Origin: Ornithinimicrobium cerasi
GTDB lineage: Bacteria > Actinomycetota > Actinomycetes > Actinomycetales > Dermatophilaceae
Assembly: GCF_003702705.1 (NCBI RefSeq)
Contig: NZ_QZMN01000004.1
Span: 62,001-126,000, forward strand
Direction: 5' to 3'
Length of the DNA stretch: 64,000 nt
In this document: positions 836-64,000 of the stretch, in pieces
Layout: each line of letters opens with the position of its first letter
Numbering within the stretch: position 1 is the stretch's first letter
The notes under the pieces: model-generated
The model's input: the letters and a program-made list of their open reading frames with translations, nothing else
Databases searched by the model: none
What the model was told of the DNA's origin: nothing
Translations under genes and position numbers: made by a program

Positions 836-1714
836 GTGCACGTCCTCACCCTCCTCACCGACCCCGCCCGGGCCGACCTCACCGAGGCGGCGCTCCGCGA
901 GCTGTCCGGCTGGGGACCGCGCTCGCCGCGGTGGCTCGCCGACGGCGTCGCGCTCGAGGCCACCCTGGACCTCCTCCCGGCGGACCGGTGGGAGGCGTGG
1001 GGCCGCTGGCAGGAGCGGGGCGTCGACCTGGTGCTGCAGCCCGCGGCGGGACGCCGCAAGAAGGTCCTCCTCGCCGACATGGACTCGACGATGATCCAGC
1101 AGGAGTGCATCGACGAGCTGGCCGCGCACGCAGGGGTGGGGGAGCACGTCGCCGGCATCACGGCGCGGGCGATGAACGGCGAGCTCGACTTCGCCGAGGC
1201 GCTGCGCTCGCGGGTGGCGCTGCTCGCGGACCTGCCGACCGCCGTCGTCGACACCGTCCTGTCCGAACGCATCACGCTGATGCCCGGGGGGAGCGAGCTG
1301 GTCGCGACGATGCGTGCCCACGGCGCCTACACGGCCCTGGTGTCCGGCGGGTTCACCCAGTTCACGGGCGCCGTCGCGGGGCGGCTCGGCTTCGACGAGC
1401 ACCGGGCCAACACGCTCGCGGTCGACGGTGGGCGGTTCACCGGCCGGGTCCTCGAGCCGGTCGTGGGCCGCGAGGCCAAGGTCGCGGCCCTCCGGGAGAT
1501 CACGGCGGAACTCGGACTGACGCCCCGGGACGCCATCGCGGTGGGGGACGGCGCCAACGACCTGGACATGCTGCGCCTCGCGGGGACCGGGGTCGCCCTC
1601 CACGCCAAGCCGGTCGTGGCCGAGCAGGTCGAGGTGCGCGTCAACCACGGTGACCTGACGGCGCTCCTCTACCTGCAGGGGTATGCCGCCGCGGACCTGC
1701 TCCGGCCGGGGTGA
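836..1714 (+). CDS. serB: Phosphoserine phosphatase SerB
   Basis: This HAD-superfamily enzyme dephosphorylates phosphoserine in the last step of serine synthesis. The 292-residue frame shows the nucleophile motif DMDST (81-85), the SGG motif (170-172) and GDGANDLDM (237-245) for Mg2+ binding. The first 75 residues form an N-terminal extension before the HAD core. The open frame continues upstream into trmD, but GTG 836 is chosen because a TACGAT -10 box lies 6 bases before it and no Shine-Dalgarno sequence is present. It sits between trmD and rplS, which are more often adjacent, so it looks like an insertion into a conserved neighbourhood. It probably has its own promoter. Confidence 0.92.
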   Translation: MHVLTLLTDPARADLTEAALRELSGWGPRSPRWLADGVALEATLDLLPADRWEAWGRWQERGVDLVLQPAAGRRKKVLLADMDSTMIQQECIDELAAHAGVGEHVAGITARAMNGELDFAEALRSRVALLADLPTAVVDTVLSERITLMPGGSELVATMRAHGAYTALVSGGFTQFTGAVAGRLGFDEHRANTLAVDGGRFTGRVLEPVVGREAKVAALREITAELGLTPRDAIAVGDGANDLDMLRLAGTGVALHAKPVVAEQVEVRVNHGDLTALLYLQGYAAADLLRPG

Positions 1715-1909
1715 CGGTTTGGCCGGGGTCCTCCCGGTCTGGCAGACTTGACCCTTGCGTCCCTGACCCGGCACCACCGAGCTCGCGCCCCTGCCACAGG
1801 GGGAGTCGCGCGAGCGGAGCGCGGCGAGGGACGGCATACCGACAGCGTGCCCGCCCCGGGCACCAGATCGCCGTGGGTGACCTGTGGCATCGACGGCAGG
1901 AGAGAAGCC
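1715..1909 (+). promoter_or_regulatory. rplS upstream region with candidate promoter
   Basis: This 195-base gap precedes rplS. A candidate promoter is TTGGCC (1719-1724), an 18-base spacer and CAGACT (1743-1748), which would leave a leader of about 155 bases. A second -35-like TTGACC lies at 1748-1753 without a good -10. One GGTATGCCG copy (reverse strand) sits at 1832-1840. A GGAGAG Shine-Dalgarno sequence lies shortly before the ATG at 1910. A long leader could carry autoregulation, but I cannot identify a known L19 leader fold. Confidence 0.35.
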
Positions 1910-2320
1910 ATGCACAAGCTCGACCAGCTCGACGCAGCCAGCCTGCGCAGCGACATCCCGGACTTCCGCGCCGGCGACACCATCAACGTCCACGTCAAGG
2001 TCATCGAGGGCAGCCGCTCCCGCGTCCAGGTCTTCAAGGGCGTCGTGATCCGCCGCCACGGCGGTGGCGTCGCCGAGACCTACACCGTGCGCAAGGTCTC
2101 CTTCGGGGTCGGCGTGGAGCGCACCTTCCCGCTGCACTCCCCGAACGTGGAGAAGGTCGAGCTCGTCTCCCGCGGCAAGGTCCGCCGCGCCAAGCTCTAC
2201 TACCTGCGCGACCTGCGCGGCAAGGCCGCCAAGATCCGCGAGCGTCGCGACGCCGTGCCCGCCGCCGCCAAGCCGGCCCCGGTGAGCGCCCCCGCGGAGG
2301 CCCCGGCCGAGCAGGCCTGA
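1910..2320 (+). CDS. rplS: 50S ribosomal protein L19
   Basis: L19 lies at the 30S-50S interface of the large subunit. The 136-residue protein has the typical core, including [17 protein letters not shown] near the start and a central [12 protein letters not shown] followed by [15 protein letters not shown]. The C-terminus after [15 protein letters not shown] is a 20-residue Ala/Pro-rich tail that is longer than in E. coli. ATG 1910 is chosen because it is preceded by GGAGAG and matches the family start; the frame stays open upstream but has no homology. A hairpin terminator follows. Confidence 0.97.
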
Positions 2321-2328
2321 GGCCGCAC

Positions 2329-2380
2329 GAGACACCGATCCCCCGTCCGGGCGCTGCCCGGCGGGGGATCGTCGTGTCTC
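2329..2380 (+). terminator. Hairpin terminator after rplS
   Basis: An outer stem GAGACAC (2329-2335) pairs with GTGTCTC (2374-2380), and an inner stem CGATCCCCC pairs with GGGGGATCG. A smaller GC hairpin lies at the tip. There is no U-tract, as is common in GC-rich actinobacteria. Confidence 0.6.
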
Positions 2381-2465
2381 CCAGCCCGCAGGGTTAAGGT
2401 CGCACCAGCCGCCCGGTCGTCAGGACGGGCCGGCCCGAGCAGCTAGAGGACGAGGACGGCAGAGG

Positions 2466-3236: not shown

Positions 3237-3970
3237 CCGCCACGGCCACTCCCCGGCGCGCCGCGGCCCGCCGCCCCAGCCTGCGGGTCGAGCGCACCCT
3301 CCAGCGCGAGGGGTACGGCGTCCTCGTCGGCATGGACGAGGTCGGCCGGGGGGCGCTCGCCGGTCCGGTCACCGTGGGGGTCGTGGCCATCGACACGTCC
3401 TGCCGGACCGCCCCGGCCGGCGTCCGCGACTCCAAGCTCCTCGCCCCCGCGGCCCGGGAACGCCTCGCCCCCCGCATCCGCCGCTGGTGCCTGGGCCACG
3501 GCGTCGGGCACGCCAGCGCCGCGGAGATCGACGACATCGGGATCATGGCTGCCCTGCGGCTGGCGGGGGAGCGGGCCCTGGCCCAGCTCGACCTGCGGCC
3601 CGACCTCGTGCTCCTCGACGGCAACCACGACTGGCTCACCGACCCGCGGCGGGTGGGTCTGCTGGCGCTGACCGAGGACACCGCCCCGCCGCCCCCGGTG
3701 CGGACGATGATCAAGGCCGACCTGCGCTGCTCCTCGGTCGCGGCGGCGTCCGTGCTCGCCAAGGTGACCCGGGACGCCCTCATGGTCGATCTCGCCCCCG
3801 GGCACGCGGCATACCGTTGGGAGCAGAACAAGGGGTATGCCGCGCCCGAGCACCTGGACGCGCTGCGCGCCCTCGGCCCCAGCGACCACCACCGCCGCAG
3901 CTGGCGGATCACCGGCAACGGGGTCGTCGCCGGCACCGGCATCGGCACGGACGAAGGAGGGCTCCTGTGA
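3233..3970 (+). CDS. rnhB: Ribonuclease HII
   Basis: RNase HII removes ribonucleotides from RNA-DNA hybrids. The 245-residue protein begins at a GTG that overlaps the lepB stop (GTGA). It has the catalytic acidic motif MDEVGRGALAGP (34-45), the DSK motif, LLDGNHD, and KADLRCSSVAAASVLAKVTRD with further acidic residues. The C-terminal SDHHRRSW is typical. An open frame extends upstream inside lepB but is antifunctional overlap, so the start at the coupled GTG is preferred. Two GGTATGCCG copies of opposite orientation lie 27 bases apart in the gene (3807 and 3834). Confidence 0.95.
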   Translation: MTATATPRRAAARRPSLRVERTLQREGYGVLVGMDEVGRGALAGPVTVGVVAIDTSCRTAPAGVRDSKLLAPAARERLAPRIRRWCLGHGVGHASAAEIDDIGIMAALRLAGERALAQLDLRPDLVLLDGNHDWLTDPRRVGLLALTEDTAPPPPVRTMIKADLRCSSVAAASVLAKVTRDALMVDLAPGHAAYRWEQNKGYAAPEHLDALRALGPSDHHRRSWRITGNGVVAGTGIGTDEGGLL

Positions 3971-5210: not shown

Positions 5211-5585
5211 ATGGAGGGTATGCCGTGGCGCGAGGCTCGCGGGGTGGGTGACCGGGGGGAGGACCTGGCCTGCGCACACCTGGTGGAGCAGGGCTGGGAG
5301 GTGGTCGAGCGCAACTGGCGCTGCCGCGAGGGGGAGCTGGACGTCGTCGCGCTCGACCCGGACGGCCAGCTCGTGTTCTGCGAGGTGAAGACGCGACGGT
5401 CCGCCCGGTGCGGCGCGCCGATCGAGGCGGTGGGTCAGGAGAAGGCGCAGCGGCTGCGCAGGCTCGCCTGGGCCTGGCTGGCCGCCCACGGGCGGCGTCC
5501 GGACCGGTTCCGCATCGACGTCATCGGCGTGCTGGTCCCGCCCGGGCGCCCGGCCGAGCTGCAGCACCTGCGGGCGGTCGCCTGA
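5211..5585 (+). CDS. yraN: YraN/UPF0102 family nuclease-like protein
   Basis: This 124-residue protein has the UPF0102 fold of a Holliday-junction-resolvase-like or restriction-type nuclease. Visible motifs are GDRGEDLACAHLVEQGWEVVERNWR, with the GExxA helix; GELDVVALDPDG, with the catalytic ExD-like E and D; and FCEVKTRRS, with the (E/Q)xK motif. ATG 5211 is preferred because AGGAGG lies four bases upstream. A second in-frame ATG at 5220 lies inside a GGTATGCCG motif. It overlaps comM by one base (TGATG). Its exact function is unknown; the comM-dprA neighbours suggest DNA processing. Confidence 0.88.
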   Translation: MEGMPWREARGVGDRGEDLACAHLVEQGWEVVERNWRCREGELDVVALDPDGQLVFCEVKTRRSARCGAPIEAVGQEKAQRLRRLAWAWLAAHGRRPDRFRIDVIGVLVPPGRPAELQHLRAVA

Positions 5586-7117
5586 TGGGGTTCGGGAGCA
5601 CCCGCGGCCTGACCCTGAGCGGCGTCGAGGGGCACCTCGTCACGGTCGAGGTGCAGGGCAGTGACGGCCTGCCGACGTTCGTCATGACCGGGCTCGCCGA
5701 CCCCGCCTGCCGGCAGGCGCCGGACCGGGTCCGCCCGGCGATCGGCAACCTGGGCCTGTCCCTGCCCGCGCGACGGTGGACGATCAACCTCTCGCCCGCC
5801 GGCCTGCCCAAGACGGGCAGCGGGCTCGACCTGGCCATCGCCACGGCGCTGCTCGCGGCGGAGAACCACGTGGACGCCGCGGAGGTGGCCGGGGTGGCCC
5901 ACGTCGGCGAGGTCGGGCTGGACGGCACGGTGCGGCCGGTGGCGGGGGTGCTGCCCATGGTCGTCGCGGCGGCGGAGGCGGGGGTGCGCGAGGTGCTCGT
6001 CTGCGCCGCCGACGCGCGTGAGGCCTCCCTCGTCGGGGGGATCACCGTGCACGGCGTCAGGTCCCTGCTCGACCTCGTGGCGTTTTACCAGGCCCGCAGC
6101 GCCGGGCTCGAGCACCCGCTCCCGGTGCCGGACCCCCCGCGGCCTCGACCCGCACCGGGCAAGGACCTGTGCGACGTCGTCGGTCAGGCGCAGGCCCGGT
6201 GGGCGCTGGAGGTCGCGGCCGCCGGCGGGCACCACATGCTCCTGGTCGGCCCGCCGGGCGCGGGCAAGACGATGCTGGCGGAACGGCTCCCGGGGCTGCT
6301 GCCCGCCCTCGGGGAGTCCGACGCGCTGGCGGTGACGGCCATCCACTCCGTGCTCGGGGTGCTGCCCCGGGGCGACGAGCTGCTCACCCGGGCACCGTTC
6401 GTCGCCCCCCACCACAGCGCCTCGATGGCGGCGGTGATCGGCGGTGGTTCCGGGGCCGTCCGACCCGGGGCCGTCTCGCGGGCCCACCGGGGCGTCCTCT
6501 TCATGGACGAGGCGCCGGAGTTCCGCCGGGACGTGCTCGACGGGCTGCGGCAACCGCTGGAGTCCGGGGAGGTGGTGGTCGCCAGGGCGGACCGGCACGT
6601 GCGGCTGCCGGCGCGCTTCCAGCTCGTGCTGGCCGCCAACCCCTGTCCCTGCGGAGGGGGACCGCCGCGGGGGTGCAGCTGCGCGCCGATGCGACGAGCG
6701 ACCTACTTCAGCCGGCTGTCCGGGCCGCTCCTGGACCGGCTCGACCTCAAGGTGGGGGTCGGTCAGGTGTCGCGTGCGGACCTCACCCTCGGACCGGGCG
6801 AGCCGAGCGAGGTGGTGGCCTGCCGGGTCGTCGAGGCCAGGGAGCGCCAGCGCCGACGCTGGCGCGGTATGCCGTGGACGCTGAACGCGGAGGTCCCGGG
6901 ACCGGTCCTGCGGCAGGGCGCCTGGCAGCTCCCGCCGCGCGACCGGCGCGAGCTCGACGAGCGTCTGGACCGGGGCACGCTCACCCTCCGGGGGTTCGAC
7001 CGGTGCCTGCGGGTCGCGTGGACCCTGGCCGACCTGGCGGGGACCGCGCGGCCAGGACGCGCCGAGGTGATGAACGCCCTGACCCTGCGTGAGATCCAGG
7101 AGGTGAAGGTCGCATGA
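5585..7117 (+). CDS. comM: YifB/ComM-type Mg chelatase-like AAA+ ATPase
   Basis: The 510-residue protein matches YifB/ComM, a hexameric AAA+ helicase that promotes branch migration during natural transformation in Vibrio and Haemophilus. Residues 1-165 form the Lon-like ChlI domain. Walker A GPPGAGKT is at 222-229, FMDEAPEF is Walker B, and the NPCPCG and CSC zinc-like cysteines follow. The C-terminal Mg_chelatase domain contains LRGFDRCLRVAWTLADL. It begins at the TGATG junction with yraN and ends in an ATGA overlap with dprA. Whether this organism is naturally competent cannot be told from the window. Confidence 0.92.
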   Translation: MGFGSTRGLTLSGVEGHLVTVEVQGSDGLPTFVMTGLADPACRQAPDRVRPAIGNLGLSLPARRWTINLSPAGLPKTGSGLDLAIATALLAAENHVDAAEVAGVAHVGEVGLDGTVRPVAGVLPMVVAAAEAGVREVLVCAADAREASLVGGITVHGVRSLLDLVAFYQARSAGLEHPLPVPDPPRPRPAPGKDLCDVVGQAQARWALEVAAAGGHHMLLVGPPGAGKTMLAERLPGLLPALGESDALAVTAIHSVLGVLPRGDELLTRAPFVAPHHSASMAAVIGGGSGAVRPGAVSRAHRGVLFMDEAPEFRRDVLDGLRQPLESGEVVVARADRHVRLPARFQLVLAANPCPCGGGPPRGCSCAPMRRATYFSRLSGPLLDRLDLKVGVGQVSRADLTLGPGEPSEVVACRVVEARERQRRRWRGMPWTLNAEVPGPVLRQGAWQLPPRDRRELDERLDRGTLTLRGFDRCLRVAWTLADLAGTARPGRAEVMNALTLREIQEVKVA

Positions 7118-8241
7118 CCTCCTGCACCGGCACCGGGTCGTGGCGCTCCGACCGTGGCTCCCGGGCCCTGCTGTCCCGGATCGCCGAGCCCTACGACGAG
7201 AGCGTGCGCGTGCTCGTGGCCGAGCACGGGGTCCAGGACCTCGTCGGTTACGCGGTCACGGACGGTCGGAACCCGGACGGGGTGCCCCTGACGCGGCTGC
7301 TCAGCAGGCTGGAGCGCAGCCTCGCCGTCGACGAGGGATCGGTCTGCCGAGCCCTGCGCGTGCGCCTCCTAGTGCCCGGCGACGAGGAGTGGCCAACCGG
7401 TCTCGACGACCTCGTGTGGCCGCCGTGGGCGCTGTGGGTCAAGGGGCCGGCCAGGCTCGACGAGGCGAGCGCCCGCGCGGTCGCCCTGGTCGGGGCACGG
7501 GCCAGCAGCACGTATGGCGACGAGGTCGCGGCGCGGATCTCGTTCTCCCTGGCAGAGCGCGGGTTCACGATCGTGTCCGGGGCCGCCTACGGCATCGACG
7601 CCGCCGCGCACCGGGCGGCCCTCGCCGCGGACGACGGTCTGACCGTCGCGGTGCTCGCCAGCGGGGTGGACGTGCCCTACCCCCGCGCCAACTCGGCGCT
7701 CCTGGAACGCATCGCGGAGGTGGGTGCGACCGTGAGCGAGACGCCCCCGGGCGGGGCCCCGGCCCGGATGCGGTTCCTGTCCCGCAACCGCATCATCGCG
7801 GCCCTCTCCGCCGGCACCGTGGTGGTCGAGGCGGGTCTGCGCTCGGGTGCCCGGAGCACCGTCAAGCACGCCCGGGAGCTGGGCCGGCACGTGATGGCCG
7901 TCCCCGGGCCGGTGACCTCGGCGCTCTCGGCCGGGTGCCACGAGGAGATCCGGGCGGGGGCCACCCTCGTCTCGGACGCGGCCGAGGTGGCCGAGCTCGT
8001 GGGCCGCATCGGCGAGGACCTCGCCCCGCCCAAGCGCGGGCCGGTCGAGGCGCAGGACGACCTGGATCCCGAGGTGCGTCGGGTCTGGCAGTGGCTGCGT
8101 CCCCGACGCTCGGTCAGCGTGGACGAGGTGATGGTGCGCTCCGGCCTGGGACTCGGCGAGGTGCTCGTCGCGCTCTCCGAGCTCGAGCACCGCGGGATGG
8201 CCGAGCAGCTGCTGGACGGCTGGAAGCGACGGGGGTCATGA
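7114..8241 (+). CDS. dprA: DNA processing protein DprA
   Basis: DprA binds incoming single-stranded DNA and loads RecA. In the 375-residue protein the Rossmann-like core shows VGAR (126-129), SGAAYGID (155-162), FLSRNRII (221-228) and GLRSGA (241-246). An N-terminal SAM-like region precedes it. A C-terminal winged-helix (DprA_WH) follows, with VMVRSGLGLGEVLVALSELE. It is coupled by ATGA overlaps to comM upstream and to the M23 peptidase downstream. Confidence 0.94.
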   Translation: MTSCTGTGSWRSDRGSRALLSRIAEPYDESVRVLVAEHGVQDLVGYAVTDGRNPDGVPLTRLLSRLERSLAVDEGSVCRALRVRLLVPGDEEWPTGLDDLVWPPWALWVKGPARLDEASARAVALVGARASSTYGDEVAARISFSLAERGFTIVSGAAYGIDAAAHRAALAADDGLTVAVLASGVDVPYPRANSALLERIAEVGATVSETPPGGAPARMRFLSRNRIIAALSAGTVVVEAGLRSGARSTVKHARELGRHVMAVPGPVTSALSAGCHEEIRAGATLVSDAAEVAELVGRIGEDLAPPKRGPVEAQDDLDPEVRRVWQWLRPRRSVSVDEVMVRSGLGLGEVLVALSELEHRGMAEQLLDGWKRRGS

Positions 8242-9851: not shown

Positions 9852-10417
9852 GCGTCCACCCTCGCGGAGCCGTCCGTTGACGCTCGTTCGACACGGGTGC
9901 CGGCCACGCGGTCGTGCAACCCCCTTCCCCCCGCCAGCGCGGGAGCCGCACAGGCCCCCGCCAGGACGAGCGAGAGCCCGGTCAGGGTCATGGCGAGGGT
10001 GGGCTGCACGTCGAGGACGGCCCGGAGCACACCGAGGTGGGCCACGTGCCAGGGTAGGGCCTTGACGAGGTTGCGCAGCCAGACCTGGCTCGTGCCGGGC
10101 CTGGCTCCCGTCACGTCCGCGACCACGAGACCGCCCCACCGCTTCCCGACCGTGGCCCGGTGCCGGGAGGACTCGCTGAGCGCGAGGTAGGCGACGTAGG
10201 GCACGACCGTCGCGAGGGCCACCGCCCCGTCGGCCACGAGCAGCGCCCGGGGCCCCGGCGGACCGGGGTCCGGGTCGCCGAGCAGCGGCCGCACGAGCAG
10301 CGCGGCGAGGCTCAGCACCCCCAGCCAGGCGCCGACGACGAGCCAGTCGCCGAACCACGACCGCACCCGCGCGGCGGGCGCGGGGCGCCACGTGGCGGTG
10401 GCGGGAGCGGACGGCAT
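9848..10417 (-). CDS. RDD family membrane protein
   Basis: The 189-residue protein has three to four hydrophobic segments (roughly 25-45, 62-80, 120-135 and 138-160). RDD-family features are [10 protein letters not shown], a central arginine-containing RNLVKALPW, and [10 protein letters not shown] near the end. Such proteins are integral membrane proteins of uncertain, possibly transport-related, function. The start codon lies inside a GGTATGCCG motif. Its stop overlaps the xerC start (GTGA). The upstream aminotransferase ends 13 bases away on the same strand, so these three genes may form one transcript. Confidence 0.82.
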
Positions 10418-10430
10418 ACCCGTGAGGGTG

Positions 10431-11594
10431 TCACCGGCGGGCGAGCGAGCGGAGCCGACGCGCCGCCTCGCGCAGCACCTCCTCCTTCTTGCAGAAGGCG
10501 AAGCGCACCAGCGAGGCGACCGGCACCGGGTCGTCGCAGAAGACCGAGACGGGGACGCCGACCACCCCGACCTCCTCCGGCAGCCGTCGGCAGAAGTCCA
10601 CGGCGTCCGTGACGCCGTGACCGGCGAGGTCGGCGATGACGAAGTAGGTCCCCTGGCACGGGCTCACCGGCACCCCGACGTCGGTGAGCGCCCCGACCAG
10701 GACGTCGCGCCGGGACTGCAGCTGGTCGGCGAGACCGGTGAAGAACGCGTCGGGCATGCGCAGCCCGTGAGCCACCGCCGGCTGCAGGTGCGTCACCCCG
10801 ACGAAGGTCAGGAACTGCTTGACGCCGGCCACGGCCGCGACGAGGGGCGCCGGCCCGCTCACCCACCCGGTCTTCCACCCGGTGAGGCTGAAGGTCTTGC
10901 CCACCGAGGAGATCGTCAGGGTGCGCCCGGCCATGCCGGGCAGCGTCGCCACCGGGATGTGCTCCAGCCCGTCGAAGACCAGGTGCTCGTAGACCTCGTC
11001 GGAGATCACGAGCAGGTCGCGCTCGACCGCCACCCGCGCCACCGCCTCGAGCTCCGCGCGGGTGAAGACCTTGCCCGTCGGGTTGTGCGGGGAGTTGAGC
11101 AGCAGCACCCGCGTCCGGTCCGTGACCGCGGCGGCCAGCGCGTCGACGTCGAGCGTCAGGTCGGGGAAACGCAGCGGCACGGTCCGCCGCACCCCGCCGG
11201 CCAGCGCCACGCTGGCGGCGTAGGAGTCGTAGAACGGCTCGATGACGACGACCTCGTCACCGGGCTCGACGAGGGCGAGGAGGCTGGCGGCGATCGCCTC
11301 CGTCGCGCCGACCGTCACCAGCACCTCGGTGTCCGCGTCCAGCGGTATGCCGTAGAAGCGTCGCTGGTGCTCGGCGACGGCCTCACGCAGCACGGGCAGA
11401 CCGCGGGCGGGGGCGTACTGGTTGAGGCCCTCCCGCAGCCCCCGCGCCGCCAGCTCCAGCATCTCCTCCGGGCCGTCGGTGTCGGGGAAGCCCTGGCCGA
11501 GGTTCACGGCGTCGAACTGCAGGGCGCGCTGGGTCATCTCGGCGAAGACCGTGGTGCCGAAGGGCTGCATGCGGGTGACGAGGTGGCCGGTCAT
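10431..11594 (-). CDS. PLP-dependent class I/II aminotransferase
   Basis: The 387-residue protein is a fold-type I aminotransferase. Seen are NLGQGFPDTDGP near the N-terminus, NSPHNPTG in the centre, ISDEVYEHLVF, and the PLP-lysine box SSVGKTFSLTGWKTGW. The substrate is not fixed by the sequence. The closest families are succinyldiaminopimelate transaminase-like and kynurenine aminotransferase-like enzymes acting on glutamine or methionine. ATG 11594 is preferred because a TACCGT -10 box lies 6 bases upstream, implying a leaderless transcript. A rare ATA isoleucine codon occurs within a GGTATGCCG motif (11344). Confidence 0.88.
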   Translation of the reverse strand: MTGHLVTRMQPFGTTVFAEMTQRALQFDAVNLGQGFPDTDGPEEMLELAARGLREGLNQYAPARGLPVLREAVAEHQRRFYGIPLDADTEVLVTVGATEAIAASLLALVEPGDEVVVIEPFYDSYAASVALAGGVRRTVPLRFPDLTLDVDALAAAVTDRTRVLLLNSPHNPTGKVFTRAELEAVARVAVERDLLVISDEVYEHLVFDGLEHIPVATLPGMAGRTLTISSVGKTFSLTGWKTGWVSGPAPLVAAVAGVKQFLTFVGVTHLQPAVAHGLRMPDAFFTGLADQLQSRRDVLVGALTDVGVPVSPCQGTYFVIADLAGHGVTDAVDFCRRLPEEVGVVGVPVSVFCDDPVPVASLVRFAFCKKEEVLREAARRLRSLARR

Positions 11595-13864: not shown

Positions 13865-14644
13865 ATGCCGACCGCTGCCCCCAGCCCCGCGACCCTCCCG
13901 ACCCCCACCTCGCCGTCCGTCGAGCACGACCCGCACACCCAACGACGGGTCCTCCTCAAGCTGTCGGGAGAGGCGTTCGGTGGCGGGAAGGTCGGGCTCG
14001 ACCCTGACGTCGTCAGGGGGATCGCGCGCCAGATCGCCGCGGGACAGCGGGCGGGCGTGCAGGTGGCCGTGGTCATGGGCGGCGGCAACTTCTTCCGCGG
14101 GGTGGAGATGCAGCAACGCGGGATGGAGCGGGCGCGCGCGGACTACATGGGCATGCTCGGCACCGTGATGAACTGCCTGGCCCTCCAGGACTTCCTGGAG
14201 AAGGAGGGCGTCGACACGCGCGTCCAGACGGCGATCACCATGGGCCAGGTCGCCGAGCCCTACATCCCGCGCCGCGCGATCCGGCACCTCGAGAAGGGCC
14301 GCGTGGTCATCTTCGGCGCCGGCGCGGGTATGCCGTACTTCTCCACCGACACCGTGTCCGCCCAGCGGGCCCTGGAGATCAAGTGCGACAACGTGCTGAT
14401 GAGCAAGCACGGCGTCGACGGGGTCTACACCGCGGACCCCCGCACCGACGAGGACGCGGTCAAGCTCGACGAGCTGACCTTCACCGAGGCCCTCACCGGC
14501 AACCTCCGTGTCGTCGACGCGGCCGCCTTCAGCCTCTGCATGGACAACGACCTGCCGATGCTGGTCTTCGGCATCGACGGCGAGGACGCCATCACCCGGG
14601 CCATCCGGGGTGAGAGGATCGGGACACTGGTCACCTCGGGCTGA
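13865..14644 (+). CDS. pyrH: UMP kinase
   Basis: PyrH phosphorylates UMP to UDP in pyrimidine synthesis. The 259-residue protein belongs to the amino-acid-kinase fold, with [32 protein letters not shown] and [12 protein letters not shown] roughly 27-residue Pro/Ser/Thr-rich N-terminal extension precedes the core, so a later start cannot be fully excluded; no better start codon lies before [16 protein letters not shown] -10-like box lies near 13822. The order tsf-pyrH-frr is the standard bacterial arrangement. Confidence 0.95.
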
Positions 14645-15257: not shown

Positions 15258-15285
15258 GCGCCCGGCACGCCCACGGCATACCCCG

Positions 15286-16179
15286 ATGACCCCAGAGCCC
15301 CCCGAGCCCCTCACCGGGGCGACGGTGTCCCGGCGGGCCTACCGCTCCCGGCGCGCGCAGCCCCGGCCCGCCGGGTCACCCCCGCGCGCCGGCCGCAACC
15401 TCCCCGCGGCCACCGGGGTCGGCCTGCTGCTGGGTGGGCTCGTCGTGGCGAGTCTGCTGCTCTACCCGTGGGCGTTCGTCGCCCTCATCACGTTCGCGGC
15501 CGCCCTGGCCATCTGGGAGCTGGACCACGCCTTCCGGGTCGGGCGGATCTACCCGCCGTTCCCGCCGCTGCTGCTCTCCGCCGGGCTGGTCCCGCTCGCC
15601 TACGCCGGTGGTCCCGAGGCGCTCGCGGTCGGTTTCGCCGGTGCGGTGGCCCTGGTGCTGCTCTGGCGCTCCGTGGGCCAGCCCGACGGGGCGGCGCGGG
15701 ACGTGGCGGGCGGCGTCTTCATCGTCGCCTACGTGCCCCTGCTCGGAGCCATCGCCTCGCTCATGCTCGCAGAGCCCGACGGGCAGTGGCGCATCCTCAT
15801 CTTCGTGCTGGTCACCGTGGCCAGCGACACCGGCGGGTATGCCGTCGGCGTGCTCCGGGGGCGGACCCCGATGGCGCCCTCGCTGTCCCCGAAGAAATCG
15901 TGGGAGGGGTTCGCGGGCTCGGTGGCCGCCAGTGCGGTGGTCGGGGCGCTGGCGGTGGCCCTCCTCCTCGACGGACGGTGGTGGGCCGGTGCCCTGATCG
16001 GTGTCGTCGCGGCCGTGTTCGCCACGGTGGGCGACCTGGCCGAGTCCGCGATCAAGCGGGATCTCGGCATCAAGGACATGGGCGACCTGCTGCCGGGGCA
16101 CGGTGGCGTGATGGACCGCCTCGACTCGATGGTCGTCAACGCGCCGGTCTGCTGGGTGCTGCTCAGTCTGCTCGTCTGA
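15286..16179 (+). CDS. cdsA: Phosphatidate cytidylyltransferase
   Basis: CdsA converts phosphatidate and CTP to CDP-diacylglycerol, the precursor of all phospholipids. The 297-residue protein has a basic, proline-rich N-terminal tail of about 45 residues. About eight transmembrane segments follow, then the CdsA signature SAIKRDLGIKDMGDLLPGHG and GGVMDRLDS with its metal-binding acidic residues near the C-terminus. SDTGGY and SPKKSWEG are further conserved motifs. The ATG follows frr by 28 bases without a clear Shine-Dalgarno sequence. The gene converges on rlmN. Confidence 0.94.
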   Translation: MTPEPPEPLTGATVSRRAYRSRRAQPRPAGSPPRAGRNLPAATGVGLLLGGLVVASLLLYPWAFVALITFAAALAIWELDHAFRVGRIYPPFPPLLLSAGLVPLAYAGGPEALAVGFAGAVALVLLWRSVGQPDGAARDVAGGVFIVAYVPLLGAIASLMLAEPDGQWRILIFVLVTVASDTGGYAVGVLRGRTPMAPSLSPKKSWEGFAGSVAASAVVGALAVALLLDGRWWAGALIGVVAAVFATVGDLAESAIKRDLGIKDMGDLLPGHGGVMDRLDSMVVNAPVCWVLLSLLV

Positions 16180-17387: not shown

Positions 17388-17439
17388 CCCCTCCAGTGTC
17401 GCAGGTATGCCGTGCGGCAGGTGCGCGCCGACCGTCGGG

Positions 17440-18053: not shown

Positions 18054-19292
18054 TCAACGAGGGTCGGGCAGCGGGGCCTGCGGACAGACCGTGTCCGCGA
18101 CGAGCGCCGCCGCCTCGTCCACGGTGTCCACGAGGTGGAGCGCACCACCCATCCGCCGCCCCCGGCCGAGCGCCTGCAGCAGCGGCCACACGGGGAGGTG
18201 GTCGGTCCAGTGGTGCCGTCCGACGAGGACGACGGGGGGCAGCGGACGGTCCACGAGGTCGACCTCGTAGTAGAGCCGGGTCGCCATCTGCAGGACCTCC
18301 TGCACCGTGCCGGCGGCGCCGGGCAGCACGACGAGGCCGTCGCGGGAGTGGGCCAGGAGGAGGTCCTCGCGCAGCGCGTTGGAGAAGAACTTCGCGACCA
18401 GCTGGGCGAAGGCGTTGGGCGGCTCGTGCCCGTAGTACCAGGTCGGGATCCCTAGGCTGCGCAGCTGCGGGACGTCTCCCGAGCGCGAGCGTGCCTCCAG
18501 CGCGGGCAGCACCCAGGCGGCGATGTCGGGGGCGAAGTCGGGCACCCTGGCCACGGCGTGCAGGGCGTCGGCCAGGACGACCTCGTCGCAGGCCCAGGCA
18601 CCCAGGTTGGCGGCCTCCATCGCGCCGGGACCCCCACCCGTGGCGACGAGCGACCCCGACTCCGCGACCCGGTGACCCAGCAGTGCCGCCGCGGCGAACT
18701 CGTCGGTCCCGCGGCGGAGCGCGTGACCACCCATCACCCCGACCACGCGTCGTCCCTGGACCAGCGCCGTCAGGGCGTCGGACATCGCGTCGTCGTGGAT
18801 GGCGCGCAGGGCGGTGACGTAGGCGTCGTGCCGGACCGTGGCGTCCTCGAACCAGCGGTAGGCGCGGGCGTCCACGGTCGCGTCGTACCCGTCCTCGGCG
18901 AGCCCGGCGTAGAGCTCCTGCGGGGTGTACAGCCGCGCGCGGTAGGGGTCCACCGGTGCGCGGTGGTCGGCCGGGAAGACGATGGCCCCGTGCGCGCGCA
19001 GGTGATCCTCCACCTCCTCGTCGAGCCGGCCGCCCAGGATCACGATGCCCCCGAGGTCGTCGCGGGAGAGCAGCAGCTCGCGGTCCCGCCGCAGGTCCAG
19101 CCCCTGCAGTCGCAGCCCGCGCAGCGGTGCAGGGGACCGCAGCAGCGAGGCCCAGGTCGCCTCGTCCTCGACCTCGCGCCCGGCCGCCGCGGCGAGGCTC
19201 TCGGCGCGCGGGTACCTGACCTCCTGGCTGGGCCGCCACCCCACCGGCACCTCGGAGACCCGGGCGCTGACGGGGCGCTGGAGGCTCGGCAT
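18054..19292 (-). CDS. LOG/PpnN-like Rossmann-fold nucleotide-binding protein
   Basis: The 412-residue protein has the lysine-decarboxylase-like LOG fold in its second half. VVGVMGGHALRRGTDEF starts the Rossmann domain, GGGPGAMEAANLGA is the first LOG motif and PGAAGTVQEVLQ corresponds to PGGxGTxxE with Gly-to-Ala changes. LOG proteins hydrolyse nucleoside 5'-monophosphates to base and ribose 5-phosphate. The length and N-terminal extension make it closer to PpnN-type nucleosidases than to plant-type LOG. The start codon lies in a GGTATGCCG motif, and a TAGGGT box six bases upstream suggests a leaderless mRNA. Confidence 0.75.
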   Translation of the reverse strand: MPSLQRPVSARVSEVPVGWRPSQEVRYPRAESLAAAAGREVEDEATWASLLRSPAPLRGLRLQGLDLRRDRELLLSRDDLGGIVILGGRLDEEVEDHLRAHGAIVFPADHRAPVDPYRARLYTPQELYAGLAEDGYDATVDARAYRWFEDATVRHDAYVTALRAIHDDAMSDALTALVQGRRVVGVMGGHALRRGTDEFAAAALLGHRVAESGSLVATGGGPGAMEAANLGAWACDEVVLADALHAVARVPDFAPDIAAWVLPALEARSRSGDVPQLRSLGIPTWYYGHEPPNAFAQLVAKFFSNALREDLLLAHSRDGLVVLPGAAGTVQEVLQMATRLYYEVDLVDRPLPPVVLVGRHHWTDHLPVWPLLQALGRGRRMGGALHLVDTVDEAAALVADTVCPQAPLPDPR

Positions 19293-19298
19293 ACCCCG

Positions 19299-28458: not shown

Positions 28459-28487
28459 GGGGAGGCTCCACCCGAGGGGGCACGGCA

Positions 28488-47734: not shown

Positions 47735-49552
47735 GTGGCCATGCGCCTGTCGACCCTGTTCCTGCGGACCCTGCGCGAGGACCCGGCCGACGCCGAGCTG
47801 CCCGGGCACAAGCTGCTCGTGCGCGCCGGCTACGTCCGGCGCGCGGCACCGGGCGTCTACACCTGGCTGCCGCTCGGCCTGAAGGTGCTCCGCAAGGTCG
47901 AGACGGTCGTGCGCGAGGAGATGGACGCCATCGGCGGCCAGGAGCTGAGCTTCCCGGCGCTGCTGCCCCGCGAGCCCTACGAGGCCACGAACCGGTGGAC
48001 CGAGTACGGCCCCAACCTCTTCCGGCTGCAGGACCGCAAGGGCGTGGACATGCTCCTCGGTCCCACCCACGAGGAGATGTTCACCCTCGCCGTGAAGGAC
48101 ATGTTCAGCTCCTACAAGGAGCTGCCGCTCACCCTCTACCAGATCCAGACGAAGTACCGCGACGAGGCGCGCCCCCGCGCGGGGCTGCTGCGCGGCCGTG
48201 AGTTCATCATGAAGGACTCCTACAGCTTCGACGTCGACGACGCCGGGCTCGAGGCCGCCTACCAGCGCCACCGCGAGGCCTACGTGCGCATCTTCGACCG
48301 GCTCGGCTTCGACTACGTGATCGTGTATGCCGACTCCGGCGCGATGGGCGGGTCGGCGAGCGAGGAGTTCCTCGCGGTCAGCCCGGTCGGCGAGGACACC
48401 TTCGTGCGTTGCGCGGCCAGCGGGTATGCCGCCAACGTCGAGGCGGTCGTCGTGCCCCAGGCGCCCCCCGTCCCGGCGGACGTCGTGGCCGCGACCCCCG
48501 CCGCGCACGTCGAGGACACGCCCGACAGCCCGACGATCGAGACGCTCGTCGCGCAGTCGGACGCGCTGCACCCGCGCACCGACGGGCGCGCGTGGACGGC
48601 CGCCGACACCCTGAAGAACGTCGTGGTCCTCCTCACCTACCCCGACGGGAGCACCGAGCCGCTCGCCGTCGGCCTGCCGGGGGACCGAGGGGTGGACGCC
48701 AAGCGGCTCGAGGCGCAGGTCGCCCCGGCCACCTGGGCGCCCTTCGAGGACAAGGACTTCGCGGCCTACCCGATGCTCGTCAAGGGCTACATCGGCCCCG
48801 GGACGCTCGGGACGAGCAGCTCCTCGGGCATCAGGTACCTCCTGGACCCCTCGGTCGCCGAGGGGTCGGCCTGGGTCACCGGCGCCGACGAGCACGGCAA
48901 GCACGTCTACGACCTCGTCCTGGGGCGGGACTTCACCGCCGACGGGACCATCCAGGCCGCCGAGATCCACGAGGGCGACCCCAGCCCGGACGGCGCCGGC
49001 ACGCTGACCCTGGCCCGCGGCATCGAGATGGGCCACATCTTCCAGCTCGGCCGCAAGTACGCGGAGGCGCTGGACCTGAGGGTCCTCGACGAGCACGGCA
49101 AGCTGGTCACCGTCACCATGGGCTCCTACGGCGTGGGCGTGTCCCGCGCCGTCGCGGCCGTCGCCGAGGCGACCCACGACGACATCGGCCTGTGCTGGCC
49201 GCGGGCGCTGGCCCCGGCCGACGTCCACGTCGTCGCCACCGGCAAGGACCAGGCGGTCTTCGAGCACGCCGAGGGCCTGGTGGCCGACCTCGAGGCCGCC
49301 GGCCTCGAGGTGGTGTACGACGACCGGCCCAAGGTCAGCCCGGGCGTGAAGTTCAAGGACGCCGAGCTGCTCGGCGTGCCGACCATCGTCGTCGTCGGCA
49401 GGGGCCTGGCGGACGGCACGGTCGAGGTCAAGGACCGGCGCAGCGGCGAGCGCCGCGAGGTCCCCGTCGAGCGCGCCGTCGGCGAGATCGTCGCCGACGT
49501 CCGTGGGGCGCACCTGACCGGCGCGCCGGTCGTCGTCCACCCGCCCGCCTGA
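47735..49552 (+). CDS. proS: Prolyl-tRNA synthetase (bacterial type)
   Basis: ProRS charges tRNA-Pro. The 605-residue protein is the bacterial type with the editing insertion domain (about 225-410) between class II motifs 2 and 3. Motif 2 is seen as [20 protein letters not shown], motif 3 around [16 protein letters not shown] and the C-terminal anticodon-binding domain ends near residue 590. GTG 47735 has AGGAGA eight bases upstream; ATG 47741 would be six codon-bases further. It follows GH13 with a promoter at its end. Confidence 0.96.
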
Positions 49553-51680: not shown

Positions 51681-53648
<1,968 letters not shown>

Positions 53649-53685: not shown

Positions 53686-54672
53686 TCAGCCGCGCTGCAT
53701 GGCCTTGATCACCGCCACCGCCCGGGTCACCTCGTCCCCGGTGTCCTCGTGGCGCTCCCGCAGGGCCCCGAGGGCGTTGTCGACGAGGCGCAGGACCGAC
53801 ATGGCCCGTGCCCGGTCGCGGTCGAGCCCGGCGGCCCCGCAGACGAGGTCGAGGCGCAGCAGGAGGTGGCTGCCCAGGTCGGGGGCGGCGAGCGCGTCCT
53901 CCCACCGGTTCCAGAGGGCGGGGGCGACGGCCCAGTGCGGGTCGGCGCTCTCGACCTTGGGGTCGATGGCCACCCACTCGCCCGGGTCGGTGCGCCAGAG
54001 CACGTTGGACTGGTGCAGGTCGGTGTGGACGAGACGCTCGTCGAGCCCGCCGTCCTGGAGCAGGTCCTCGACGAGACTGGCCGCGTGCAGAAGCAGCCGG
54101 CGCGGGAACTGGTGCGCCGCAGCCGGATCGGCGGTGGCCACCGCGATCCGGCCGGACAGCCTGCGGAGGTGGTCCGAGAGGGCCGGCGCCCAGGGGGCGC
54201 CCGGTCGGTCGAGCCTGCCCAGGAGGGTGCCGAGAGCCTCGCAGGTGCCCGCGACCGGTCCGACGGTGAGGTCACGGGTGGCGTCGAGCCGTTCGAGGAG
54301 CAGGGCCCCGTCGGCGGGTTCCGCGGCGAGGAGGCGGACGGCGCCCCGGCCCCGCCACGCGCGCAGCGCGAGGTGCTCGACGTCCGCCTCCGGGTGCGGC
54401 CACCCGAGCTTGAGCATCCCCGGGTCGCCGTGGGGGCGCAGGACGGGGACGACCAGCGCCGTGGCCCCCCAGCGCACCGGCTGGTCGGGGTCCTGCCGCA
54501 GCCGCCACCGTTCCAGGGAGGTGTCGATGAGTCCTGGCAGGCGGGCCAGCCAGGTCTCCCCGTCCGGTCGGTATGCCGCACGCCCACCCGCGCCGTCCTG
54601 ACCGTCCGGTCCGTGGTCGGGCACGTACCGGCGGACCGTGCGGACGAAGCCCCCGGGCAGCTCCACCGTCAC
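53686..54672 (-). CDS. APH-like kinase (PF04655 antibiotic-kinase family)
   Basis: The 328-residue protein resembles the aminoglycoside-6/hydroxyurea phosphotransferase family. Seen are [20 protein letters not shown] and [14 protein letters not shown]. The catalytic loop is [14 protein letters not shown] and the metal-binding segment is [13 protein letters not shown]. Such enzymes are often annotated as resistance kinases, but chromosomal actinobacterial copies have no proven substrate. The GTG start overlaps the stop of the upstream DUF4439-like lipoprotein gene (GTGA). Confidence 0.8.
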
Positions 54673-61465: not shown

Positions 61466-62423
61466 GGCCCCCGACGCCCCGGTCGGCGACGGCCTCCTCG
61501 TCGTCGACAAGCCCGCCGGGTGGACCAGCCACGACGTGGTCGGCCGGGTACGCCGCCTCTGCCGCACCCGCCGCGTCGGTCACGCCGGCACCCTCGACCC
61601 CCTGGCCACCGGTGTGCTCGTCCTCGGCGTGAACCGGGGCACCAAGCTCCTCACCTTCCTGGTCGGCCACGACAAGGGGTATGCCGCCACCGTGCGCCTC
61701 GGTCTCTCGACGCTGACCGACGACGCCGAGGGCGAGGTGACGGGGGGCAGCGACGCCTCGCACCTGAGCGACGCGCAGGTCGCGGCGGCGGTCGCCGCGC
61801 TCACCGGCCCGATCGCCCAGGTCCCGAGCGCCGTCAGCGCGATCAAGGTCGACGGCCGGCGCTCCTACGCCCGGGTCCGCGCCGGCGAGGACGTGGAGCT
61901 GCCCGCCCGGCCGGTGACGGTGAGCAGGTTCGACGTGCTGGGGGTCCGTCGCCCGGGGGAGCCGGTCCCCGGGCCGGCCGGGACCGAGGTCCCCGACGGG
62001 GTGCTCGATCTGGACGTGCAGGTGGAGGTCTCCTCCGGCACCTACGTCCGGGCGCTGGCCCGCGACCTGGGCCTGGCCCTCGGCGTGGGCGGCCACCTCA
62101 CCGCCCTGCGCCGGACCCGCGTCGGAGGGCTGACGCTGGAGCACGCGGTGACCCTCGAGGCGCTGGACCCCGGGACCGGACCCGGCCCCGCGGCATACCT
62201 CGTCGACCTGGCCGACGCCGCGCGCGCCGTCCTGGCGGTCCGCGAGCTGGACGAGCCGGAGGCGCGGGCGCTCGGCTACGGCCAGCGGATCCCCTCCGCG
62301 CAGCCCGGCCGGGAGGAGCCGGTCGCCGCCTTCGGGCCCGACGGCAGGCTCGTCGCCGTCCTCGACGAGAGCTCCGCCCGGGCGCGCGCCCACGTGGTCC
62401 TCGCGCCGGCGACCGCGAAGTAG
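61455..62423 (+). CDS. truB: tRNA pseudouridine(55) synthase TruB
   Basis: TruB makes pseudouridine 55 in the T-loop of tRNAs. The 322-residue protein shows LLVVDKPAGWTSHDVVGRVR and RVGHAGTLDPLATGVLVL, in which the Asp is the catalytic residue. PSAVSAIKVDGRRSYARVRAG and VEVSSGTYVRALARDLG follow, with a C-terminal PUA-like portion. GTG 61455 overlaps the end of rbfA; the frame upstream of it is unrelated. The stop TAG forms part of a TAGAGT box for ribF. Confidence 0.95.
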   Translation: MTSEAPDAPVGDGLLVVDKPAGWTSHDVVGRVRRLCRTRRVGHAGTLDPLATGVLVLGVNRGTKLLTFLVGHDKGYAATVRLGLSTLTDDAEGEVTGGSDASHLSDAQVAAAVAALTGPIAQVPSAVSAIKVDGRRSYARVRAGEDVELPARPVTVSRFDVLGVRRPGEPVPGPAGTEVPDGVLDLDVQVEVSSGTYVRALARDLGLALGVGGHLTALRRTRVGGLTLEHAVTLEALDPGTGPGPAAYLVDLADAARAVLAVRELDEPEARALGYGQRIPSAQPGREEPVAAFGPDGRLVAVLDESSARARAHVVLAPATAK

Positions 62424-62426
62424 AGT
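62421..62426 (+). promoter_or_regulatory. -10 box TAGAGT for leaderless ribF
   Basis: TAGAGT includes the truB stop codon and ends seven bases before the GTG at 62434. Confidence 0.45.
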
Positions 62427-62433
62427 GACCGCC

Positions 62434-63396
62434 GTGCACCGCTGGAGCAGCCTGGACGACGTCCCCGCCGACCTCGGCGCGACCGTCGCCACCCTCGGCA
62501 ACTTCGACGGGGTGCATCGCGGGCACCGGGCCGTGCTGGACACCGTGACCTCCCTCGCGCGGGAGCGGGGGCTGGCCTCGGTCGCCGTCACCTTCGACCC
62601 GCACCCCGTCGCCGTGCTGCACCCGGAGCGCGCGCCCAAGGAGATCGCCGGCCTCGCCCACCGGCTCGACCTGCTCGAGGAGATCGGCCTCGACGGCACG
62701 GTCGTCATCGAGTTCACCCGGGAGTACGCCCTGCTCACCCCCGAGGACTTCGTCCGCCAGACCTTCGTCGAGGGGTTACGGGCCCAGGTCGTCGTCATCG
62801 GCCACGACTCCCGGTTCGGCCTGGACAACAGCGGGGACGAGCGGACCATGCGGGAGCTGGGGGAGCGTCACGGCTTCGAGGTGGTCGTCCAGGGCACCGT
62901 CGGGGAGGTGGACCACGGGTTGCGGACCTGGTCCTCGACCGCGCTGCGCGAGGCGCTGGGCACGGGCGACGTCGAGACCGCCACCCAGATCCTCGACCGT
63001 CACCACCGGGTGACGGGCGAGGTCGTCCACGGCCACCACCGCGGGCGCGAGCTCGGTTACCCGACCGCCAACCTCGAGGACGGCAGCGAGGGGCTGGTGC
63101 CCGCGGACGGGGTCTACGCCGGGTGGCTGGAACGTCCGGCGCTGCCGCCCGAGCACCCGGACCGCCGGCTCCCCGCCGCCATCTCCGTGGGCACCAACCC
63201 CACGTTCGACGACGTGGCCCGCCGCACGGTGGAGGCCTATGTGCTGGACCGCACCGACCTCGACCTCTACGGCGAGACGGTGTGGGTGGAGTTCGTCCAC
63301 CGGCTACGGGCCAACGAGCGCTTCGACACGGTCGAGGCGCTCATGGTGCAGATGGGGGCCGACGTCGACCGCGCCCGGACCCTGCTCGTCGGCTGA
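62434..63396 (+). CDS. ribF: Bifunctional riboflavin kinase/FAD synthetase RibF
   Basis: RibF phosphorylates riboflavin to FMN and adenylylates FMN to FAD. In the 320-residue protein the N-terminal nucleotidyltransferase domain shows LGNFDGVHRGHRAVL, VTFDPHPVAVL and VVIGHDSRFG. The C-terminal kinase domain shows GRELGYPTANLE and the metal/ATP-binding SVGTNPTFD. GTG 62434 fits a leaderless start from the TAGAGT box; GTG 62425 would overlap that box. Confidence 0.93.
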   Translation: MHRWSSLDDVPADLGATVATLGNFDGVHRGHRAVLDTVTSLARERGLASVAVTFDPHPVAVLHPERAPKEIAGLAHRLDLLEEIGLDGTVVIEFTREYALLTPEDFVRQTFVEGLRAQVVVIGHDSRFGLDNSGDERTMRELGERHGFEVVVQGTVGEVDHGLRTWSSTALREALGTGDVETATQILDRHHRVTGEVVHGHHRGRELGYPTANLEDGSEGLVPADGVYAGWLERPALPPEHPDRRLPAAISVGTNPTFDDVARRTVEAYVLDRTDLDLYGETVWVEFVHRLRANERFDTVEALMVQMGADVDRARTLLVG

Positions 63397-63413
63397 CCGC
63401 CGGAGGGACGGGT

Positions 63414-64000
63414 ATGCCGTCACGCGGCCTGGGTGAGCGCTACGCCCGCACCGAGTGGGGGCTGTTCGTGGCCGCCCTCGGCCTGTCGCTGGTGGGGGCG
63501 CTGCTCGTCTGGTCGGCCACCCGGGGCGAGGTCGGTGCGGCGCTCGCGGTCCGGCACCTCGTCAACACCGCGGTCGGCCTCACCCTGGCGCTAGTCCTCG
63601 TCGCGGTGGACGTCCGGTGGTTGCGGGCAGCGGCACCGTGGATCTACCTCGCCGGGCTGGCCGGGCTCGTGCTGGTGCTCTCACCGGTGGGACAGACCGT
63701 CAACGGGTCGAGGTCGTGGCTCTTCCTGCCCGGCGGGTTCTCCCTCCAGCCCGCCGAGCTCGCGAAGATCGGGCTGGTCATCGGGCTGGCGATGATCCTG
63801 GCCGAGGGGCGCGACCCCTTCCGCCCGCCGCTGTGGCGGGACGTGCTCACCGCGTGGCTGCTCGCGGGCGTGCCCGTGGGCCTGATCCTGCTGCAGCCCG
63901 ACCTGGGCAGCGCGCTCGTGCTCGGGATGCTCACGGTCGCGGTCGTCGCGGCGTCCGGCGCCTCGATGCGGTGGACCCTCGCCGCCCTGGGCGGCACCGC
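63414..64000 (+). CDS. FtsW/RodA/SpoVE (SEDS) family protein, partial
   Basis: The frame runs off the window end at codon 196. The protein is a polytopic SEDS-family peptidoglycan glycosyltransferase: GSRSWLFLPGGFSLQPAELAKIGLV and LLQPDLGSALVLGMLTVAVV are the diagnostic conserved blocks. Four to five membrane segments are visible. A GGAGG lies eight bases before the ATG, which lies in a GGTATGCCG motif. It could be rodA or ftsW; its partner penicillin-binding protein gene would be expected just outside the window. rpsO, often found after ribF, is not in the 17-base gap. Confidence 0.85.
   Translation, partial: MPSRGLGERYARTEWGLFVAALGLSLVGALLVWSATRGEVGAALAVRHLVNTAVGLTLALVLVAVDVRWLRAAAPWIYLAGLAGLVLVLSPVGQTVNGSRSWLFLPGGFSLQPAELAKIGLVIGLAMILAEGRDPFRPPLWRDVLTAWLLAGVPVGLILLQPDLGSALVLGMLTVAVVAASGASMRWTLAALGGT

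Follow-up and report, generated by a model that had tools for sequence, protein, structure and literature searches.

The 64-kb window and its word copies

The window analysed here, a 64-kb stretch of the Ornithinimicrobium cerasi genome (positions 62,001 to 126,000 of contig NZ_QZMN01000004.1), contains a comM-like gene, dprA and 29 exact copies of the nine-base word GGTATGCCG, 18 on the plus and 11 on the minus strand. The expected number is 0.23, and none of 100 window shuffles reached 29 copies, the maximum being two. The initial annotation, made from the sequence alone, had recognised this over-representation; its count of 28 copies (17 plus) missed the one at position 284. One-base variants of the word are found in the window at the background level or close to it. 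The tenth base is T in 17/29 copies and C in 10/29, and is thus Y rather than T: the 17 copies followed by T had been noted correctly, and the ten-base word ending in T that was deduced from them is to be replaced.

The copies lie on both strands and in several frames, as had been described and as the genome counts below also indicate. Nine of the 29 are located at a gene edge or outside called genes; the gene calls and coding fractions come from our own simple composition-based caller and are approximate. The four copies previously placed in gaps (1832, 15274, 17404 and 28483) all fall outside called genes. Among those thought to cover start codons, the copy at 19287 does overlap the start of a listed open reading frame (ORF), whereas that at 10412 has a minus-strand gene, called or listed, on either side. 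The assignment of comM and dprA is borne out by Pfam matches. DprA, which loads RecA onto incoming single strands, is in this window 74% identical to DprA of O. pekingense, the best named match. The features are listed below; the fractions, obtained for the first 20 kb of the window, give the aligned relatives carrying the identical word.

284..292, plus: GGTATGCCG copy, exact match
1680..1688, plus: GGTATGCCG copy, exact match; identical in 6/14
1832..1840, minus: GGTATGCCG copy outside called genes; identical in 1/15
3807..3815, minus: GGTATGCCG copy, inverted pair with 3834; identical in 3/18
3834..3842, plus: GGTATGCCG copy; identical in 6/21, with GCTACGCCG in 8/21
5217..5225, plus: GGTATGCCG copy outside called genes; identical in 11/16
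5408..7117, plus: comM-like gene, Mg_chelatase and ChlI domains (PF01078, E 1.1e-83), start codon uncertain
6866..6874, plus: GGTATGCCG copy within comM; identical in 0/20
7114..8241, plus: dprA (PF02481, E 1.2e-66; PF17782)
10412..10420, minus: GGTATGCCG copy outside called genes; identical in 12/14
11344..11352, plus: GGTATGCCG copy, lying antisense within a gene for an aminotransferase; identical in 14/21
14327..14335, plus: GGTATGCCG copy; identical in 6/18
15274..15282, minus: GGTATGCCG copy outside called genes; identical in 0/13
15836..15844, plus: GGTATGCCG copy; identical in 10/13
17404..17412, plus: GGTATGCCG copy outside called genes; identical in 0/2
19287..19295, minus: GGTATGCCG copy outside called genes; overlaps a listed ORF at its start
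20217..20225, plus: GGTATGCCG copy, exact match
21460..21468, plus: GGTATGCCG copy, exact match
24076..24084, minus: GGTATGCCG copy, exact match
28483..28491, minus: GGTATGCCG copy, exact match, outside called genes
33172..33180, minus: GGTATGCCG copy, exact match
34570..34578, plus: GGTATGCCG copy, exact match
44214..44222, plus: GGTATGCCG copy, exact match
44293..44301, minus: GGTATGCCG copy, exact match
48423..48431, plus: GGTATGCCG copy, exact match
51822..51830, plus: GGTATGCCG copy, exact match
52901..52909, minus: GGTATGCCG copy, exact match
54570..54578, plus: GGTATGCCG copy, exact match, outside called genes
61678..61686, plus: GGTATGCCG copy, exact match
62191..62199, minus: GGTATGCCG copy, exact match
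63411..63419, plus: GGTATGCCG copy, exact match, outside called genes

To assess turnover at orthologous sites, the dprA region (window positions up to 20 kb) was compared with 22 further loci from the genus. Window copies vary from 12/14 (10412) and 14/21 (11344) identical to 0/20 (6866), and the form GCTACGCCG found at 3834 is two substitutions away from GGTATGCCG. The word was identical in 794/1670 ungapped pairwise comparisons vs 3948/16766 for control 9-mers, which hold three A/T bases; 663 motif comparisons gapped in the 31-column frame were set aside, and no p-value is given because pairwise comparisons share sites and genomes. The nine motif columns were free of gaps at 2158/2414 aligned sites, as compared with 31603/33691 control positions. 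Motif sites are thus somewhat more gapped than control positions, and many of them are non-coding. The mostly ungapped sites and variable identity indicate, to judge from these alignments, that copies are gained and lost mainly by substitution and not by insertion.

Abundance, shape and placement of the word in the genome

The excess extends far above the null over the whole assembly of O. cerasi (G000; 3.83 Mb, 87 contigs), which contains 1077 copies, 556 forward and 521 reverse; the reversed word, used as a control, occurs seven times (2 + 5). The shape of the word was measured in 355 kb from O. cerasi and 400 kb from a relative with a complete genome, G011. In both, substitutions at positions 2-6 (GTATG) are at background or near it. 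Substitutions are strongly enriched at position 1 (33 observed vs 2.9 expected in G000) and position 7 (47 vs 4.6), and C or T at position 9 is also tolerated in G011. Position 10 is mostly T or C, and the flanks past it carry little information. The unit thus reads GGTATGCCGY: its core, GTATG, is inviolable and its edges are soft, and it is not a longer repeat.

A separate arrangement was seen at locus L011 (G000, contig C1), where three minus-strand copies at 18888, 18941 and 18994 have an exact 53-base spacing and are probably carried by a tandem repeat.

A codon-preserving null, in which synonymous codons were shuffled inside called genes and non-coding DNA was regenerated, yielded 3.4 copies vs the 130 seen in 343 kb of the O. 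cerasi genome (10 shuffles), and 5.7 vs 141 in G011. The 343-kb pool is without locus L025 (11.9 kb, no copy), which is included in the analyses of shape, GC content and spacing. Wholly inside word copies lie 31/121 TAT codons (26%), 7/23 ATA codons (30%) and 11/70 CAT codons of these 343 kb, in line with the earlier statement that the word forces rare codons. An artefact of codon context or of a dispersed repeat could draw on the preference for phase 1 (31 sense and 30 antisense of the 90 coding copies, which use all six phases). Its probability is negligible, and it is already contradicted by the codon-preserving shuffles, which also dispose of a single codon context as the full explanation, by the presence of copies in every frame and outside genes, and by the uninformative flanks past position 10. 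Selection or drive acting on the word at the level of DNA, and not through a protein effect, is established, since several independent tests agree: the codon-shuffle null, the occurrence on both strands and in all frames, the sharp core, and an abundance more than 100 times that of the reversed word. Selection on DNA had been proposed by the initial annotation.

Replichore polarity was examined in one complete genome, that of G011. Twenty 20-kb stretches distributed evenly over its chromosome contain 66 plus and 75 minus copies, and the best two-arc split of the strands has an uncorrected p of 0.12. Together with the 556/521 ratio in O. cerasi, this confirms the lack of a strong orientation skew noted from the window. 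A fixed word spread genome-wide would suit an architecture signal of the FtsK orienting polar sequence (KOPS) or SpoIIIE recognition sequence (SRS) type, which directs FtsK/SpoIIIE translocation, but such words point to the terminus and no significant arc was detected in G011; this role, one of those listed initially, is very improbable. The spacing of copies is near random, with a gap coefficient of variation of 0.89 to 0.94. A role as inverted-pair terminators was considered and rejected, as pairs show no enrichment.

In O. cerasi, 40/130 copies are located outside called genes, compared with 12% non-coding bases (p ~1e-8), an enrichment of about 2.5-fold; in G011 the values are 38/141 and 19% (p 0.02). 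Placement also varies with GC content: in G011 the low-GC part holds 6 copies in 84 kb and the rest 135 in 316 kb. By 2-kb windows of this genome, there are 0 copies in 12 windows with GC below 0.66, 6 in 30 at 0.66-0.70, 97 in 117 at 0.70-0.74 and 38 in 41 above 0.74; the three upper classes in O. cerasi give 4 copies in 16 windows, 60 in 87 and 66 in 73. Since the three A/T bases of the word predict an excess in AT-richer DNA, this scarcity represents depletion in atypical DNA. With GC content as a proxy, the low-GC DNA poor in the word is probably acquired or foreign. The sole copy-free 20-kb stretch of G011, L133, has a GC content of 0.671, and genes at its end look like a transposase in our own reading, with no database match behind it. 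The first 20 kb of G011, which we read as dnaN-recF-gyrB-gyrA, contain two copies; this is a single stretch.

The sharp core and graded edges resemble a protein contact, as would be expected of a binding site for an abundant nucleoid-type or regulatory protein. This explanation is improbable given that 90/130 copies lie within called genes, where they entail rare codons, and that the word is depleted in low-GC DNA; in addition, thousands of weakly beneficial sites would be hard to keep by selection alone.

Dialects of the word across the family

The family sample comprised 187 genomes, that of O. cerasi included. Genomes with at least 190 copies of GGTATGCCG, hereafter the home word, were regarded as home-word-rich (hand tally). 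Ornithinimicrobium is placed by NCBI in Ornithinimicrobiaceae, Micrococcales; the family searched is wider, takes in Humibacillus, Piscicoccus and Phycicoccus, and appears to be the Dermatophilaceae of GTDB. The home word reaches the threshold in 106/187 genomes, with a maximum of 2198 copies, and forward and reverse copies are about equally numerous throughout these 106. The reversed-word control is mostly below 20; it rises to 118 in G067, leaving a home-word excess of only about twofold there. The 22 genomes searched from other families of the order contain 1 to 49 copies. Seven copies are present in the loci L031-L108 (1.45 Mb), which come largely from other actinobacterial families, with at least four belonging to this one. 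Within the genus, 31/32 genomes have 193 to 1323 copies. The remaining one, G023, has nearly lost the word (20 copies), and its ComEC match (3.9e-32) is weaker than most of its genus; a loss of competence is possible there.

Comparison with related genera thus revealed the word in many relatives and, in addition, lineage-specific dialects, which could not be seen from the window and are the main addition beyond the initial annotation. Alternative words were sought by k-mer scans in home-word-poor genomes, with the reversed word as control. These scans detected GGATGCCG 113 times in 100 kb of G091 (reversed word, 3), CGTACG[CT]CG 73 times in 100 kb of G060 (reversed, 4), CGAAGGGNG 77 times in 120 kb pooled from four genomes of genus g52 (reversed, 1), GTACGGCG 48 times in 100 kb of G141 (reversed, 7) and CGTATG[CG]CG 49 times in 120 kb of G067 (reversed, 7). 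In scans of G185 and G023 no comparable related word stood out. The assumption that word-poor genomes lack a replacement word, made when an order-2 Markov ranking had favoured codon-type words, was refuted by these later scans.

Family-wide counts show the dialects to be mostly genus-wide, with switches. CGAAGGGRG has 894-2601 copies in 16/16 genomes of g52 and 1452-2165 in 3/3 of g61, and at most 127 in each of the other 168. The dialect GGATGCCGT, also written (C)GGATGCCGT, reaches its threshold of at least 700 copies in 7/187 genomes: 704-1971 copies in 4/4 of g40, 1084 and 1136 in both of g34 (one a Humibacillus genome) and 1073 in g73, with at most 314 in all others. CGTACGYCG has at least 800 copies in 10/187 genomes (2/3 of g29, 2/4 of g3, g31, g32, 3/3 of g60, and G141), peaks at 2997 in g60 and is more weakly enriched in several genera, g2 and g74 among them; it contains a palindrome, which makes its reversed-word control less exact. 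A switch inside a genus is seen in G141, with 1473 CGTACGYCG and 5 home-word copies; two others of its genus, G142 and G143, contain 1602 and 305 home-word copies. Two words occur together in G093 and G094. At the thresholds used, at least one of the four words is present in 140/187 genomes (hand tally). Judged by their letters, GGTATGCCG, CGTATGSCG, CGTACGYCG and CGGATGCCG are plainly related to each other; CGAAGGGRG matches the shared scaffold S-G-N-A-N-G-N-N-G, a single fit that could be due to chance.

Other candidates were rejected: one in G023, as its reversed control was as common (25 vs 23), one in G066, with a reversed control half as common (10 vs 20) and one dominant coding phase, and a word of G098 (L221-L225), CGTATGCCGCT, whose flanks are conserved and which resembles a longer dispersed repeat, 18/31 copies being outside called genes. 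Several further words were observed. ATCGAAAG occurs 17 times in G098 vs 0.0 expected; CGCACCTAC (18 times) and CTACTCGAC (15 times) in G207 (L154, L155, L170, L208) vs about 0 expected form perhaps a local repeat array. The reversed control TGCCGTAGG has 188 copies in G116, two to five times the number in other g52 genomes, and may itself be an enriched word. Words of the GCTGCGCA and CTGCGCAG types are moderately above the codon-shuffle expectation in several genera.

Dialects were mapped on two protein trees. The LeuRS tree (19 genomes) was built from 20 loci hand-picked for rich and poor genomes rather than at random; genomes in which CGTACGYCG is weakly in excess were counted under that word, and two rows carry no label. 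The home word is found in both of its deep halves and the labels require at least five changes. All labels together cluster as low in 78/200 shuffles, and CGAAGGGRG alone forms one group, beyond shuffles. On the helicase tree (18 genomes), of which only starred branches were used because G070 forms a very long row and some rows are partial, the sampled members of g52 and g61 form one clade (support 100/99), and 0/200 shuffles cluster all labels as well, a result aided by the close relatives of the own genus.

These distributions bear on two further explanations named by the initial annotation. HIP1, the highly iterated palindrome, also shows a strong excess and patchy distribution among clades. 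A HIP1-like word upheld by a methylase or a repair bias, or a self/non-self modification mark, would agree with the very strong excess and patchiness found here. HIP1 is, however, a palindromic octamer and the present word has 9-10 bases and is not its own reverse complement; modification alone offers no reason for an excess, and to our knowledge stepwise dialect change is not a feature of HIP1. This explanation has little probability. A Chi-like recombination hot spot, read by a nuclease of the RecBCD, AddAB or AdnAB type, is unlikely, if less so than the other alternatives. Chi words are likewise short, frequent and biased to the core genome, and RecC is encoded by O. cerasi. RecC matches are found in 90/187 family genomes, patchily between and within genera: they occur in home-word-poor genomes (G023, G066, G141, 15/16 of g52, g61 and g62) and are missing from many rich ones (9/9 of g55, 10/11 of g67, 8/9 of g72, 4/5 of g30). 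The strand polarity of Chi is lacking in G011 as well.

A proposed role in DNA uptake

Competence genes are widespread in the family. ComEC (PF03772) is encoded by 181/187 genomes, ComEA adjoins ComEC in 20/20 loci of relatives, and DprA is present in 32/32 genomes of the genus. A small Tad locus of O. cerasi encodes a TadA-type ATPase, two T2SSF proteins, a Flp-like DUF4244 protein and TadE. With symmetry, a sharp core, turnover by substitution, scarcity in low-GC DNA and dialects, the competence genes make an uptake sequence a better fit than any rival, and the best among the options of the initial annotation. We consider that GGTATGCCGY is the self-recognition word of an independently evolved, sequence-biased DNA uptake system in Gram-positive bacteria, with a probability of roughly two in three.

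A putative surface DNA-binding protein, probably on or near the Tad/Flp pilus, would prefer word-bearing fragments, which would then pass through ComEA and ComEC and be recombined with the help of DprA and RecA. Word-bearing alleles would be imported and recombined more often, so that copies arising by point mutation would accumulate genome-wide, in either orientation, where coding permits. If the specificity of the receptor drifts, the whole genome would follow, giving rise to dialects. The fuller picture, of a Gram-positive uptake language with at least four dialects on the scaffold S-G-N-A-N-G-N-N-G, a putative receptor on a Tad-type instead of a type IVa filament, and boundaries of exchange written into genomes and switched several times, is somewhat less probable and still favoured.

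Several observations weigh against an uptake role. ComEC of O. cerasi itself is represented by two partial Pfam matches. Nearly every genome of the family encodes ComEC and T2SSE ATPases, which track neither the presence of the word nor its dialect, and the membrane-SLBB-HhH layout of ComEA is alike in word-rich and word-poor genomes, as read from an alignment. PilM, the marker of type IVa pili, was not found in O. cerasi nor in 180/187 genomes (minor pilins were not searched), and no receptor candidate emerged among the machinery genes compared. Forty-seven of 187 genomes have none of the four words at the thresholds used, most of them with ComEC. Close inverted pairs are not enriched (4 vs 2.5 expected, and 3 vs 2.5). 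The clustering of the home word on the LeuRS tree does not exceed that of shuffled labels (303/500 as low), and dialects agree with phylogeny within genera, not between them. No report of competence in Ornithinimicrobium is among the literature matches listed.

As genes that might discriminate word presence, ComEC, PilM, T2SSE, RecC and the ComEA layout were tried, and none tracks it. Among the Tad loci of 20 genomes (11 home-word-rich, 9 poor), no gene cluster was present in most rich and absent from poor ones; clusters confined to rich genomes comprise at most five loci each, and the minor pilins diverge too quickly for a verdict. In G143 (L109), PilM is matched over nearly its full length (E 2.9e-38), a sign of type IVa pili that is rare in the family.

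No uptake experiment was found in the literature searched, and no such actinobacterial word is among the matches listed, preprints and most subscription papers being outside their scope. If the word does serve uptake, it would represent a third, monoderm case beside the two Gram-negative families, and biased uptake would evolve repeatedly and without type IVa pili. The family would be marked as naturally transformable, and adding the word to DNA would provide a handle for genetic work. Co-evolution of receptor and word would become a comparison of 187 genomes, dialect switches inside genera included, and the species boundaries of gene exchange would be written into genomes and switched several times.

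Chi, KOPS and HIP1 are likewise short genome-wide words; the polarity, nuclease link or palindromy that characterise them are missing here. In Neisseria the receptor, ComP, is known and in Pasteurellaceae it is predicted (ComN); both are type IV minor pilins. The family studied here differs in its Gram-positive host, in its core GTATG instead of CTG, and in that most genomes gave no PilM match; there is no enrichment of inverted pairs, and dialects agree with genera without the deeper agreement with phylogeny on the LeuRS tree. ATGCCGT is shared with the AT-DUS dialect of the DNA uptake sequence (DUS), which we take to be chance. The uptake signal sequence (USS) of Pasteurellaceae has an AT-rich tail; the flanks here show none. 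Membership of the DUS or USS families is not claimed, since the cores CTG and GCGG are absent from the word and the type IVa pilus marker was not found.

For its transformation, Micrococcus luteus, also an actinobacterium, relies on ComEA and ComEC together with Flp/Tad pili, and genes of these kinds occur in this family too; in contrast to the present case, the excerpts of PMC6370729 mention no uptake word for it, and those of PMC5217627 contain no match for actinobacteria. Neisseriaceae and Pasteurellaceae are described as "the only families known" to have DNA uptake sequences, with the cores CTG and GCGG and eight and two dialects, respectively (PMC12616744, 2025). An intragenic bias of uptake sequences has been reported (PMC2346458). 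USS evolve by point mutation and are under-represented in newly acquired segments and in coding sequence, most where it is constrained (PMC7811141). The present word resembles them in its 9-base core, occurrence on both strands, evolution by point mutation and scarcity in low-GC, probably acquired segments, and differs in being unrelated in sequence and in the number of forms, at least four words vs two USS dialects (PMC12616744). The eight DUS dialects agree with core-genome phylogeny and require the core CTG (PMC3630211). As in the DUS of Neisseriaceae, a word of about 10 bases with an invariant inner core is present here in hundreds to thousands of copies (PMC3630211, PMC12616744), and several dialects share one scaffold within one family.

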